The position numbers and the translations under genes are program-made. A DNA stretch of 64,000 bases from a virus: positions 1 through 64,000 of the IMG/VR virus record IMGVR_UViG_3300045135_000898, one strand, 5' to 3'. Under the pieces are notes generated by a model that saw only the letters and a list, made by a program, of their open reading frames with translations, was not told where the DNA came from and did no database searches. Position 1 is the first letter of the stretch, and the number at the start of each line of letters is the position of its first letter. Positions 1,110-57,908 of this stretch are shown piece after piece.

Positions 1110-1184
1110 TGGTGGGCCAGGAGTGAGTCGAACACTCTTCAATCCCTTATGAGGGGAACGCTTCTACCGATAAGCTACAAGCCC
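1110..1184 (-). tRNA. tRNA with CAT anticodon (Met, or Ile2 if lysidine-modified)
   Basis: The minus strand folds into a full cloverleaf of 75 bases with CCA encoded. The anticodon loop is CTCATAA, the T arm is GAGTG-TTCGACT-CACTC, and the acceptor pairs GGGCTTG with CTGGCCC, with one T-T mismatch at the sixth pair and a mismatch at the top of the anticodon stem. CAT would read AUG, or AUA if the C is converted to lysidine as in the T4 tRNA-Ile. It is the last gene of the RNA operon that starts near 2683. Confidence 0.85.
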
Positions 1185-1190
1185 AAAGAG

Positions 1191-1420
1191 GAGGAGCACT
1201 CGACCGGGTAGTCCCAATCCTTATCTCCATTATCTGCCCCCGTGCACAGAGGACTTACAAAGTGGTTCTTCACGGGCTAAGCCTGCTGTTTCTTCGCTCC
1301 CTCCCATTTAGACTCTGACGTTATCGCCGAGTGGGCCAGAGCGGAATATGCGATTTGGGCATCACCGTGAATATGTAAAGCATCCTCATGCCTGTTTAAG
1401 AGCCGCAATCGTGCTCCCTC
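1191..1420 (-). ncRNA. RNA unit 0, large branched domain
   Basis: A stem of 7 bp (GGAGCAC at 1193-1199 with GTGCTCC at 1411-1417, extendable past a one-base bulge) could close a 230-nt domain. Inside are smaller hairpins, for example CTCTG/CAGAG and CCCGTG/CACGGG pairs. The closing stem is short for its span, so this unit is less secure than the others. Confidence 0.4.
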
Positions 1421-1543
1421 CTACTTCGCCTATAACGCTCAGACGGTCTATATCCACCACAGATATAATGACAACCGTGTAAGAGGTCGGTTAAACCTTA
1501 TGAGGTAGGCCGGTTGGTTAGACCATTTTACCAGATGCTTTAT

Positions 1544-1639
1544 AAAACACACTAGACCGTGGCTGAGAGGCGGCCCCTTTATTCCGAAATCCTCGCCGTG
1601 GAGTCTAGAACACTTTCCACGCTTTACCTAGTGTGCTTT
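1544..1639 (-). ncRNA. RNA unit 1
   Basis: A 12-bp stem pairs 1544-1555 with 1628-1639, with one G-U wobble on the minus strand. Inside, CGTGGA pairs with TCCACG and GGCG with CGCC. The last four bases are shared with the start of unit 2, so the two stems abut or compete. Confidence 0.65.
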
Positions 1640-1729
1640 AGAATAGACTCTAGCGTGGCACCACCTCATCCTTCTGGACTCTGGGCTGACGTTCGATAAC
1701 GACCACATAGAGCTAAAGTCTATTCTAAA
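1637..1729 (-). ncRNA. RNA unit 2
   Basis: An 18-bp stem pairs 1637-1654 with 1712-1729, with a single U-G wobble on the minus strand; it may continue after a 5-nt bulge with GTGG/CCAC. An inner hairpin CGTT-ATCG-AACG is visible. It is the longest closing stem in the array. Confidence 0.7.
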
Positions 1730-1774
1730 GGCGGTTTTAGTTTTAAGACACAGACCGCAAACTGTTCCTTAGCA

Positions 1775-1859
1775 TTTAGAAAGCACACTGGGGTCTGGGT
1801 CACGTCATGAGGGCATCGACCATCCTCCCTCGACTAATCACCGCAATGTGCTTTCTAAA
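1775..1859 (-). ncRNA. RNA unit 3
   Basis: A 16-bp stem pairs 1775-1790 with 1844-1859, with one U-G wobble on the minus strand. GAGGG/CCCTC forms an inner hairpin. The closing stem is nearly the same sequence as that of unit 8 (one base differs on each strand). Confidence 0.7.
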
Positions 1860-1910
1860 GGTGAGGGTTTTACTATTTAACGACGGATAACCCACAACCA
1901 TGTCGAACAT

Positions 1911-1964
1911 AGGTTCTGTTAACAAGCATCTTCCGCTCTTCACCACGCTTAGTGGACAGAACCT
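1911..1964 (-). ncRNA. RNA unit 4, 9-bp hairpin in a less regular domain
   Basis: AGGTTCTGT (1911-1919) pairs perfectly with ACAGAACCT (1956-1964). The surrounding 1860-2070 is part of the same array but I could not find one closing stem for it; AAAGGTG near 1857-1863 could pair with CACCTTT near 1972. Confidence 0.5.
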
Positions 1965-2070
1965 CGGGTAACACCTTTACCGTCACGGACTTGACCTTGT
2001 TACAGGTAGTGCGTGCTCATCTTTCGATGTACCCTGGCACAATACACCGAATCCAAAAGGACCGGGAAAG

Positions 2071-2144
2071 GCACACTAGGGTCCATTTCGGGCTTGTTGA
2101 TGGAGTGACCTTGTTTGCTCCACGAACCTAATGTCCTAATGTGC
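2071..2144 (-). ncRNA. RNA unit 5
   Basis: GCACACTAGG (2071-2080) pairs with CCTAATGTGC (2135-2144) over 10 bp with one wobble on the minus strand. An inner hairpin uses TGGAG and CTCCA. It abuts unit 6 without spacer. Confidence 0.6.
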
Positions 2145-2238
2145 TTTAGAATAAAGACGGTTCTGATGCCACCTACAGAACTGGCTTCCCAATTAAGGTA
2201 CACACCTTGGCATATATGTCTGCAATCTTTATTCTAAA
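2145..2238 (-). ncRNA. RNA unit 6 with predicted pseudoknot
   Basis: A perfect 13-bp stem pairs 2145-2157 with 2226-2238. Inside, 2160-2165 can pair with 2176-2181 (GTTCTG/CAGAAC) and 2166-2171 with 2208-2213 (ATGCCA/TGGCAT); the order of these four strands makes an H-type pseudoknot. A further hairpin AAGGT/ACCTT lies in the long loop. It ends two bases from tRNA-Cys. Confidence 0.7.
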
Positions 2239-2239
2239 T

Positions 2240-2315
2240 TGGAGCTGAGTACAGGATTCGAACCTGTGTATAATGGATTTGCAATCCAGTGCCTAACCTC
2301 TCGGACCAACTCAGC
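2240..2315 (-). tRNA. tRNA-Cys (GCA)
   Basis: The 76-nt minus-strand cloverleaf encodes CCA and has the anticodon loop TTGCAAA. The acceptor is GCTGAGT paired with ACTCAGC, and the discriminator is U73, as expected for Cys. The D arm resembles the shortened form of plastid tRNA-Cys. It lies between RNA units 6 and 7 in the same transcript. Confidence 0.92.
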
Positions 2316-2317
2316 TT

Positions 2318-2407
2318 AAATTGGTCGGGGATTGGTCGGTAGTAGTCGCGACTCCAATACCTAGATGCATTTCGTCTTACATCTTTATCCCCGATAAACT
2401 TTAATTT
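2318..2407 (-). ncRNA. RNA unit 7
   Basis: TCGGGGAT (2325-2332) pairs with ATCCCCGA (2387-2394), and outside an asymmetric internal loop AAATT (2318-2322) pairs with AATTT (2403-2407). The last bases overlap the closing stem of unit 8. Confidence 0.6.
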
Positions 2408-2553
2408 AGAAAGAACACTGTGTAGGATTTGAACCTACGAGCGGGATATCTCCCTATTTGGCTGCCGTATGTTTTACGAGGACTCGAACCTCCACCAGAC
2501 CATCTGGACGACGGAATCGAACCGTCTTACTCCCAATCAATGTTCTTTCTAAA
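2405..2553 (-). ncRNA. RNA unit 8 carrying three T-arm-like hairpins
   Basis: A 13-16 bp stem (2405-2417 with 2541-2553, extending inward past a U-G wobble) closes a multibranched unit. Inside are three hairpins with seven-base tRNA T-loop sequences on the minus strand: TTCAAAT at 2433-2427, TTCGAGT at 2488-2482 and TTCGATT at 2521-2515, each on a 4-5 bp GC-rich stem. Two plain hairpins, CCAGA-TGG-TCTGG and GGGA-GATA-TCCC, lie between them. There is no D arm, anticodon arm or CCA, so these are not tRNA genes. Confidence 0.7.
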
Positions 2554-2689
2554 TCGATCTGCTTAATAGCATCAACAGATCAGAAACATTCCATGCTAAC
2601 CCTTCACTGAGTAGTTAATCTATGACGTTGTATGATTAACTTTTACTTGCCAACTCGTTTCATTGGTTGTTTCTTTAATTTATGTATCT

Positions 2690-2718
2690 ATTATAATCTA
2701 ACTTTCTCTAAAAGTAAA
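2690..2718 (-). promoter_or_regulatory. Early promoter of the RNA operon
   Basis: TTTACT and TATAAT are 17 bases apart on the minus strand, inside GTTTAC and TATAATAG as at the protein-gene promoters. The predicted start near 2683 leads into hairpins GATCTG/CAGATC and AGTTAATC/GATTAACT, then units 8 to 0. Confidence 0.8.
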
Positions 2719-3012
2719 CAATTATTTACATTATTTTTAGATCAATTTGTTATAACGTTATACCTACCTGTTATTTATGGGTGTTACCCCACAGCATACA
2801 CTCTGCTTTTTTGCTAAGTGGATTGGCCACCACTATGCGGAACTCTGTTTACCGGATCTTCCCAACTCGGCAAGAATTTCAGATCCTTCTTTTACGTCAT
2901 AAGATATATACCACAGGTCTAAGCACGTCTTAATTGCTGGATACTATATATCTATCTTCGACTCATGCTCTCACCAACCTCCAACCAACATACGGAGAGC
3001 TCAGGGTTCCTT
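2719..3012 (-). other. Non-coding stretch with strong hairpins
   Basis: No convincing gene is seen here. Read as minus-strand RNA it contains GATATATA/TATATATC, GGATCT/AGATCC and GCTCTC/GAGAGC hairpins, so it may be another structured RNA made by read-through from the gene ending at 3013, or a processing region. The A/T-rich part next to 2719 probably serves as upstream element of the promoter at 2690-2718. Confidence 0.4.
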
Positions 3013-3553: not shown

Positions 3554-3582
3554 ATTCTATCAAATGATTAAGCAAAAGTAAA
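3554..3582 (-). promoter_or_regulatory. Early promoter
   Basis: TTTACT and TAGAAT, 17 bases apart on the minus strand, with the A/T tract GTGAAAAAAGTT just upstream. The -10 lies between repeats TTTGATAG and CTATCAAA, so it can sit in a hairpin. Drives 3354-3527 and 3013-3354. Confidence 0.8.
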
Positions 3583-3621
3583 CAACTTTTTTCACAGTTT
3601 TTAGAACTTGTTGTTATATCC

Positions 3622-3789
3622 TTATAACGATTCTCTTAAACGTTTTTCTACCTCGCGACAGTACTCAAGCGTACCTTCACAAATGAAATTTTCAGCAATG
3701 CCATTATAGTTTGTGTCGACTAAAGAAACGAGTATGCATTTTCCGTCTACACACTTGATCATATAGTCAATTGGTTTATCATTAGTCAT
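3622..3789 (-). CDS. Hypothetical small protein, 55 aa
   Basis: An ATG at 3789 opens a 55-residue frame ending in TAA at 3622. It starts MTNDKPIDYMIKC and has four Cys residues. The start overlaps the end of the upstream gene by 8 bases, the coupling seen throughout this operon, which supports it as a real gene despite its size. Function unknown. Confidence 0.55.
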   Translation of the reverse strand: MTNDKPIDYMIKCVDGKCILVSLVDTNYNGIAENFICEGTLEYCREVEKRLRESL

Positions 3790-30412: not shown

Positions 30413-30694
30413 TTAAGAACGGTTGTAGACATAAACATCGATCTTGGTGGCATTTGCGATACCTCCTACGATGTTTCCTGCCCAATCATATGATAGTTTG
30501 GACATCTTACCAGTGTAAGGATTGTACTTATCCATTTTAACAAGAGGTTTACGGCCACGAAGAACAACTCGTTTCTTTACGCTTTTACCTTTATTCATAA
30601 TTGATACCGCTTTACGAAGTTCTTCAATCTGAAGCATATCAGAAGCAGAGTTGATGTCAGCAGTAAAGATGTAAGAAGTAGATGTACGTTTCAT
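30413..30694 (-). CDS. Hypothetical basic protein, 93 aa
   Basis: Starts MKRTSTSYIFTADINSASDM; rich in Lys, Arg and Ser. A single early gene from the promoter at 30726, ended by the terminator at 30375. No family recognised. Confidence 0.55.
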   Translation of the reverse strand: MKRTSTSYIFTADINSASDMLQIEELRKAVSIMNKGKSVKKRVVLRGRKPLVKMDKYNPYTGKMSKLSYDWAGNIVGGIANATKIDVYVYNRS

Positions 30695-30725
30695 AATATA
30701 GTTTCCTTCAATTGATTATGGTTCT

Positions 30726-30753
30726 ATTATACCAAATTTTCGAAAGATGTAAA
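30726..30753 (-). promoter_or_regulatory. Early promoter
   Basis: TTTACA and TATAAT with a 16-base spacer on the minus strand; GGTATAATAG as at other sites. Confidence 0.78.
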
Positions 30754-30759
30754 TAGTTT

Positions 30760-30942
30760 TTACCAAGATCTTTTAGAATTGTTTGATCTAATACGCATAT
30801 CTGATATAACGATAGGAATTAAAAATACAGCAAAAATAGCTGGGAATACGATCCAAGGAGGAGCAACTCCATCAACAATTCTGAAGTAAACTGCGGTTGC
30901 AACAATCATAAGTGATAAGATTAATACTGTAATGTTATTCAT
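30760..30942 (-). CDS. Small two-span membrane protein, 60 aa
   Basis: Start placed at the ATG at 30942 (GGAAGG upstream). Two hydrophobic helices, about 3-20 and 30-45, with a basic C-terminus SNNSKRSW. Last of a three-gene unit with the SprT-like gene; function unknown. Confidence 0.55.
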   Translation of the reverse strand: MNNITVLILSLMIVATAVYFRIVDGVAPPWIVFPAIFAVFLIPIVISDMRIRSNNSKRSW

Positions 30943-42841: not shown

Positions 42842-42870
42842 AAACAAAAACTCCTCGATTTGATATAGCT

Positions 42871-42899
42871 ATTATACCAAAACCGAGGACTACTGTAAA
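42871..42899 (-). promoter_or_regulatory. Early promoter in an inverted repeat
   Basis: TTTACA-17-TATAAT on the minus strand; CCTCG (42853) and CGAGG (42884) flank the -10 and can form a hairpin. Confidence 0.82.
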
Positions 42900-42931
42900 T
42901 AGCTTTTTTAGAATAATTTGTTATAACCATA

Positions 42932-43858
42932 TTACTGATTTTTATATGCGTATTCTATCGCGCGGTCGGCTTCCAACTCAAGTGGTCGGTTTTCGTACCA
43001 ATTACCAGTTTCCATATCTATTTCACGGGCAAGTTGAGCGATTTCTCGAGATGTAATTGGATAACCTGCATCGATAGCTTTATAAGCAATTGATACCATC
43101 ATCTTGTACATTCCGTGATACCAACCAGTGTCAGTGATATTACGATATGAATCAACGGCTACCTTAGATACAAACGGGCAATCATGATATGACTTCCAAG
43201 AAAACTTTGTATTTTCCATTGAGTCTTTACGATGCTGCACAATCATTTGTTGCATAGAGTCAGGTAGTCGTTCAAAGAATGATTTGCCGCTTTTCTTTAT
43301 CTCTATCGGATGCTTAGCAATAAGAGCATCAGGGTCAATATAAGACCCAGAATTGACGAAGATAAAATTGTTAGCACCATCATAATTCGCAGGCGTGTAG
43401 TACATTCGGCTAAGGTCTTTAGTTTGTCGATCTCCAACTGAGTCAAGCTCAGTGTTGAGAGCGTACCAAAACTGTTTGATTCGATCCGCCTTAACAGCTC
43501 CTTTAAGTGGAAAGACGAGTCTAAACTTCGGATGATCGACAGTACTGCTAGCAGTGCTATAACAAACGTAATACCAATCACCATACCTAGTACGTAATTC
43601 ATTTTCTAGATCTCCTTCAAATACGTGTTCGTCTACGTCGACTGCAGCCCAACGACCCCACTCGGTAACATTTCTGTTAGCACGAGTGGTACCGTCTTCG
43701 TAAACTGCTGGAGAGATGAGTTCAGCATCTTTCTTGTCTTTAATATCACGCTTAGACAATTTGAACAACAAGGCTTCAAATTCTTCCCAAGATTGGAAGG
43801 ACATGTTCTTGTTAGTCTTGTTATCATAGATGCTTTTAAAGACAGTCAAAGAGTACAT
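42932..43858 (-). CDS. AEP-type primase-like protein
   Basis: 308 residues with archaeo-eukaryotic primase motifs: DxD in AAVDVDEH (Asp74, Asp76), a Ser-x-His-like segment STVDHPKFRLVF (Ser105, His109), and a third acidic region DLSRMYYT. T4 uses the unrelated DnaG-like gp61, which is not seen in this window, so this may be an additional or replacement primase or primase-polymerase. Activity is predicted only. It overlaps the MazG-like gene start by one base. Confidence 0.6.
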   Translation of the reverse strand: MYSLTVFKSIYDNKTNKNMSFQSWEEFEALLFKLSKRDIKDKKDAELISPAVYEDGTTRANRNVTEWGRWAAVDVDEHVFEGDLENELRTRYGDWYYVCYSTASSTVDHPKFRLVFPLKGAVKADRIKQFWYALNTELDSVGDRQTKDLSRMYYTPANYDGANNFIFVNSGSYIDPDALIAKHPIEIKKSGKSFFERLPDSMQQMIVQHRKDSMENTKFSWKSYHDCPFVSKVAVDSYRNITDTGWYHGMYKMMVSIAYKAIDAGYPITSREIAQLAREIDMETGNWYENRPLELEADRAIEYAYKNQ

Positions 43859-46004: not shown

Positions 46005-46037
46005 AACGATGTTTCCTATTCATTAATTTATGGATCT

Positions 46038-46066
46038 ATTATACAAACTATTAATGAATGTGTAAA
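46038..46066 (-). promoter_or_regulatory. Early promoter inside a 10-bp inverted repeat
   Basis: TTTACA-17-TATAAT on the minus strand. The -10 lies between perfect repeats ATTCATTAAT (46018-46027) and ATTAATGAAT (46050-46059), the clearest promoter stem-loop cassette in the window. Confidence 0.85.
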
Positions 46067-46131
46067 CAACTTTTTTCACAATTTTTAGATCAATTGTGAA
46101 TAAAAAGTGAGACTGTTAGAACGAAATGATA

Positions 46132-57806: not shown

Positions 57807-57840
57807 AATGTAATCCTCAGTTTTTCAAATTGATAGGGCT

Positions 57841-57869
57841 ATTATACCCCATCTCAATCATAATGTAAA
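57841..57869 (-). promoter_or_regulatory. Early promoter of the CobS-like gene
   Basis: TTTACA-17-TATAAT on the minus strand. Confidence 0.82.
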
Positions 57870-57908
57870 TAGTTTTGTTAGAATAATTTGTTCTAACAGA
57901 GAAGGTTT

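Follow-up and report, generated by a model that had tools for sequence, protein, structure and literature searches.

Structured RNAs encoded next to phage tRNA genes are already known, mostly without an assigned function. Among the closest described systems are the stable species 1 and 2 RNAs of phage T4 (rnaC and rnaD), whose genes adjoin the phage tRNAs and the first of which has a T-arm-like 3' end. In type III toxin-antitoxin loci, tandem near-identical RNA repeats are followed by a toxin gene. In C. difficile, AbiF is neutralised in trans by the abiF RNA, which also binds the protein (PMC12373285). An abiF sRNA has also been reported in cyanophage S-CREM1, a tRNA-rich T4-like phage for which, unlike the phage studied here, the accessible text of the report describes no array of units (PMC9964418).

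Here we describe a marine phage locus in which about ten folded non-coding RNAs lie in a string with tRNA-Met and tRNA-Cys. The window analysed is a stretch of 64,000 nucleotides (positions 1 to 64,000 of the 81,970-base virus record IMGVR_UViG_3300045135_000898), and the interval studied spans its positions 1185-2683. The DNA polymerase of this phage is nearest to those of T4-like phages (51% to Phage C48C1, 48-49% to T4-like cyanophages). Like GOLLD and ROOL, the array is phage-borne, lies beside tRNAs and has pseudoknots; unlike them, it consists of modular RNAs found in pieces and is matched by neither Rfam model even in permissive scans, which leaves identity with either family unsupported and bears out a judgement that the first-pass annotation had made by eye. 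A homo-multimeric cage is a further trait expected of GOLLD and ROOL members. The array shares its setting and, in part, a tRNA-like 3' end with rnaC and rnaD, and no sequence match to them was seen (T4 was searched with the core described below only, and rnaC and rnaD were compared by eye); the two T4 genes are located away from the T4 copy of that core.

Organization and orientation of the locus

The longest open reading frame within 1185-2683 encodes 67 amino acids; a protein-coding reading was dropped on this ground, in keeping with the earlier claim that the interval holds no protein gene. An Rfam 15 scan, permissive scan included, returned tRNA-Met and tRNA-Cys as the sole matches in the window, ruling out a single Rfam family that would explain it, and cloverleaf calls by ARAGORN and Infernal gave the same two tRNAs and no complete tRNA in the units, unit C included. 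No description of the core or of the long-stem units was found in a literature search that covered few subscription journals. The features, in the order of the minus strand, are as follows.

2782-3012, minus strand: domain A, structured and non-coding, upstream of the promoter-like site (alignment with L179 and L176)
2690-2718, minus strand: sigma-70-type promoter-like site, TTTACT-17-TATAAT (promoter scan; block conserved in L179)
2556-2670, minus strand: leader, conserved in L179 and in part also in L176
2403-2555, minus strand: unit C, 18-bp closing stem (stem scan)
2316-2404, minus strand: hairpin D, predicted from the window sequence alone
2240-2315, minus strand: tRNA-Cys (GCA) (tRNA calls and Rfam)
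2145-2238, minus strand: unit E, 14-bp closing stem, 1-2 nt past the CCA of tRNA-Cys (stem scan, closing-stem covariation)
2071-2144, minus strand: unit F, closing stem of about 10 bp (related units in L179, L186 and L188)
1966-2041, minus strand: extended core with GNRA-loop hairpin, three-way junction and pseudoknot GGGUA/UACCC (covariation, six sequences)
1970-2013, minus strand: 44-nt three-way-junction core (model R1, E 1e-20; covariation in 21 sequences)
1905-1965, minus strand: hairpin 3' of the core, conserved in L179, L186 and L188
1775-1859, minus strand: unit G, 16-bp closing stem, inner helix and pseudoknot GGYC/GRCC (covariation)
1636-1730, minus strand: unit H, 19-bp closing stem (stem scan, closing-stem covariation)
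1544-1639, minus strand: unit I, closing stem with GGTAAAGCGTGGAAAGTG (relatives in L176, two copies, L179 and L180)
1349-1369, minus strand: diverged abiF-like motif with GATGCCCAAATC (K-domain alignment; undetected by Rfam here)
1185-1290, minus strand: domain K, conserved hairpin domain 3' of the abiF or abiF-like motif (found six times across five phages)
1110-1184, minus strand: tRNA-Met (CAT) (tRNA calls and Rfam)

At least six closed units had been proposed in the first-pass annotation, and all six given there with coordinates were recovered, displaced by a few bases at most; the domains at 2782-3012 and 1185-1290, the core at 1966-2041 and three tRNA T-arm-like sequences in unit C (2425-2435, 2480-2490 and 2513-2523) had escaped it. 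With a minimum of 12 bp and at most two G-U pairs, four minus-strand stems were observed (units C, E, G and H) against 0.17 expected from 200 dinucleotide shuffles, the longest shuffled stem reaching 15 bp, which rules out chance inverted repeats as their source. Two stems are weaker, that of unit I (15 bp with three G-U pairs) and that of unit F. On the plus strand the closing stems are broken to 13-14 bp because one odd position turns A-C; in homologous units it is U.G in 8 of 11 stems and otherwise C-G or U-A. The earlier argument that this position forms a G-U pair only as minus-strand RNA, and with it the assignment of the array to that strand, therefore holds. Folding energy cannot by itself settle the strand, since 1500-2240 (741 bases) folds better than 20 shuffles in both orientations (z of -3.8 for minus and -5.3 for plus); what decides is the G-U argument together with the orientation of the tRNAs.

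An early promoter had been placed at 2690-2718. The minus-strand TTTACT-17-TATAAT is indeed there, within a block 92% identical to L179; in the promoter scan, such sites were no commoner than in shuffles. In domain A, RNAalifold placed 42 pairs, 8 of them with a double change, in an alignment of only three sequences (window, L179 and L176). AT-rich promoter-like segments recur in the window (2710-2762, 3574-3626, 46019-46095, 30689-30760, 42851-42935 and 57825-57890), several of them matched by regions of L179.

Covariation and modularity of the units

Relatives were sought through neighbouring genes and conserved motifs, and related arrays were found in five other uncultured phages (L179, L186, L188, L180 and L176); a search through the open reading frame at 664-1002 yielded none. 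The L179 array has the same order from tRNA-Met to tRNA-Cys. Between phages, the pieces are 71-92% identical in DNA, their order varies and interiors are swapped, and it is these matching pieces in a different order and with replaced interiors that mark the array as modular. Within the window the unit interiors appear unrelated to one another, and the closing stems share a uniform outer UUUAGAA/UUCUAAA.

Compensatory change maintains the folds in the related arrays. In unit G, compared in five phages, all 28 pairs are 100% paired and 10 of them are double-changed, pseudoknot GGYC/GRCC included; in the extended core, compared in six sequences, all 25 pairs are paired and nine are double-changed, the pseudoknot GGGUA/UACCC becoming GGGAG/CUCCC in L180. 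The three-way-junction core of 21 phages has 40 double-change cells against 15 in shuffles, and the closing stems of 11 units have 19 against 5.0, a level reached by none of 500 shuffles in either case. Positions 1-4, 6 and 7 of the closing stems are invariant, most of positions 8-13 covary, and the odd U.G pair stands at position 14. In all four alignments, none of 500 shuffles equalled the observed percentage paired, double-change cells or covariation score, and all three lay far above slid controls, over which structures derived from the very sequences tested have an advantage. Weaker measures were further pair types in unit G (167 of 500 shuffles) and pairs with a double change in the core (57 of 500). 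The array-unit alignments are small (5-6 sequences), and the closing-stem set includes paralogues, the arms of listed units having been joined by us with a neutral spacer. Exceptions are the KLB31 core, whose outer helix is broken and both sides of which look recombinant, and one L188 stem with a mismatch. With Rfam returning tRNAs only and the homologues covarying strongly, the first-pass reading of a possibly new, polycistronic group of structured RNAs is supported.

A two-armed stem pattern run over 2.9 million viral contigs gave seven matches, namely four arrays already known to us and three further loci (L218, L219 and L220) that hold 5, 21 and 23 tRNAs, respectively, and from all three of which the core is absent. 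Units were also found directly between tRNAs. Some start 1-2 nt past the CCA of a tRNA, as seen in L179, L220 and the window, or past a tRNA-like CCA end, as in L180, which is suggestive of their release in the manner of tRNAs.

The core and the abiF-like motif in other phages

The core is common to T4-like, rV5-like and Vibrio phages. Its T4 copy lies at about 64.8 kb, upstream of or around the start of vs.8, with further copies in T4 relatives; in Vibrio phages 1.012.O and 1.193.O it falls within unannotated gaps. With the 181-base T-even element as query, 1,004 phage records were matched, the weaker ones only in part. Model R1, run over 68 loci, gave 28 matches below 1e-11, including four loci left out of its alignment (L211, L217, L206 and L203) and the second copies in L205 and L207, and scored L187 and L189, in which the P1 loop is replaced, lower. 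T4-like and rV5-like phages carry the core without the other array units. Rfam returned no family at the core loci, and a likeness to a segment of RNase P was dropped for want of Rfam support. Five bacterial matches to part of the core were attributed to chance (four at 14-18 bits with R1, one scoreless), and L037, picked up by a loose regular expression, was judged false.

We note a few further loci. Kanagawavirus carries two tandem core copies (L205:595-639 and 733-775; L207:506-550 and 619-661), and in the second L205 copy an A-U pair of helix P1 has changed to G-C by compensation. In Vibrio phage 1.161.O, 2.1 kb without an annotated gene (L210:629-2718) are homologous to the array region of 1.193.O, and a search of this segment with R1 gave no match. 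A 16-bp closing stem in Vibrio phage 1.012.O (L182:3514-3608) encloses a tRNA-like element that includes a T-arm.

One module resembles a known antitoxin RNA. L186 carries an abiF RNA (RF03085) scoring 45.4 bits against a gathering score of 37 and identical to the consensus at 32 of 32 positions, and L179 a diverged copy containing AAUGCUCAAAUC, at 33.8 bits (E 9e-4) under that score; in the window, the permissive scan gave no match to this model. The abiF motif, or its core GAUGCYYAAAUC, nonetheless stands at the same place before all six copies of domain K (two in L186 and one each in L179, the window, L188 and L176), and among 220 loci the 12-mer GATGCYYAAATC is confined to the array loci and L187. 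The latter has a compact version directly following a thyX-like gene (L187:8040-8280), in which a core with an inserted P1 loop precedes an abiF-like motif that contains GATGCTCAAATC. The module differs from known abiF RNA in its diverged window copy, in the conserved K domain that follows and in its gene context, no Abi_2 toxin gene having been found in the seven records searched, all of them fragments. For a comparison with type III toxin-antitoxin loci, this toxin search covered the AbiF class, and the unit interiors look unlike one another. Taken with the behaviour of the C. difficile RNA, the motif suggests that the abiF/K module may mimic an antitoxin.

Alternative explanations and proposed role

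The locus is almost certainly a genuine array of structured non-coding RNAs; covarying stems and pseudoknots in the aligned sequences indicate that its modules are real RNA structures, and modular. The array is probably cut into discrete RNAs alongside the tRNAs. More tentatively, at least some of these may serve as anti-defence decoys, by analogy with antitoxin RNAs. As a whole, we put the probability of our best explanation, polycistronic modules that undergo tRNA-type processing and act as decoys at least in part, at roughly 0.4. A single untranslated minus-strand transcript would comprise tRNA-Cys, separately folding RNA modules and tRNA-Met; host tRNA-processing enzymes, aided by the UUUAGAA/UUCUAAA closing stems, would cut it into stable small RNAs, some of which would disarm host defence ribonucleases normally occupied by their own antitoxin RNAs or by tRNAs. 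The clearest case would be the abiF/K module, given the L186 copy identical to the AbiF antitoxin RNA consensus. It is for this module that the sequences argue; no other resembles a known antitoxin RNA, and decoy roles for the others are proposed by analogy. Shuffling of the modules would fit selection from varying host defences.

Stable small RNAs of the species 1/2 type, several of them tRNA-derived and with a role other than that of antitoxins (such as one in translation or in the maturation of tRNAs), would account for the T-arm-like sequences of unit C, for the tRNA-like element of L182 and for the similar genomic setting and T-arm-like end of T4 rnaC. T-arms are, however, absent by inspection from most units (E, F, G, H, I and the core), and the abiF match would be left unaccounted for, which makes this reading somewhat unlikely. 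We consider it unlikely that the modules are domains of one large ornate RNA that, like GOLLD or ROOL, forms a particle which is large or multimeric and has the tRNAs within it or at its flanks: the adjoining tRNA-Met and tRNA-Cys, several pseudoknots and a GNRA loop are in its favour, and GOLLD, too, adjoins tRNAs and is variable in one half (PMC12286853), but neither model matched, units sit directly between tRNAs, and modules occur alone or reordered, the core by itself in T4-like and rV5-like phages and units without the core in L218-L220.

The position of the core ahead of vs.8 in T4-like phages would suit a cis element in nascent RNA, such as an antiterminator or a 5'-UTR switch. This is improbable in view of the mid-array placement of the window core and, by eye, of a promoter-like sequence that separates the core from the following gene in an rV5-like phage (L200:1110-1165) and of a hairpin resembling a terminator some 100 nt past the core in 1.012.O. 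Small mobile or palindromic DNA repeats with terminal inverted repeats would explain the shared outer 7 bp (UUUAGAA) and the shuffled order, and yet are very hard to reconcile with arm middles that covary by compensation, a U.G pair that exists only as minus-strand RNA, interiors that fold and covary, and a stem pattern whose seven matching contigs all carry arrays.

Returning to processed modules acting in part as decoys, this explanation leaves the retention of the core in T4-like and rV5-like phages unexplained. A broader version is possible, if doubtful: the array may be a modular RNA anti-defence cassette of interchangeable antitoxin and tRNA mimics, expressed and processed in tRNA-like fashion, with a core useful to T4-like, rV5-like and Vibrio phages. 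The locus brings to light two or more families not described before: the long-stem units, and the three-way-junction core, which T4 shares with about 1,000 other phage records. The proposed role makes a concrete prediction for laboratory phages, namely that array RNAs would disarm toxin-type defences, and, if it is true, T4 would gain an overlooked RNA open to deletion and study.
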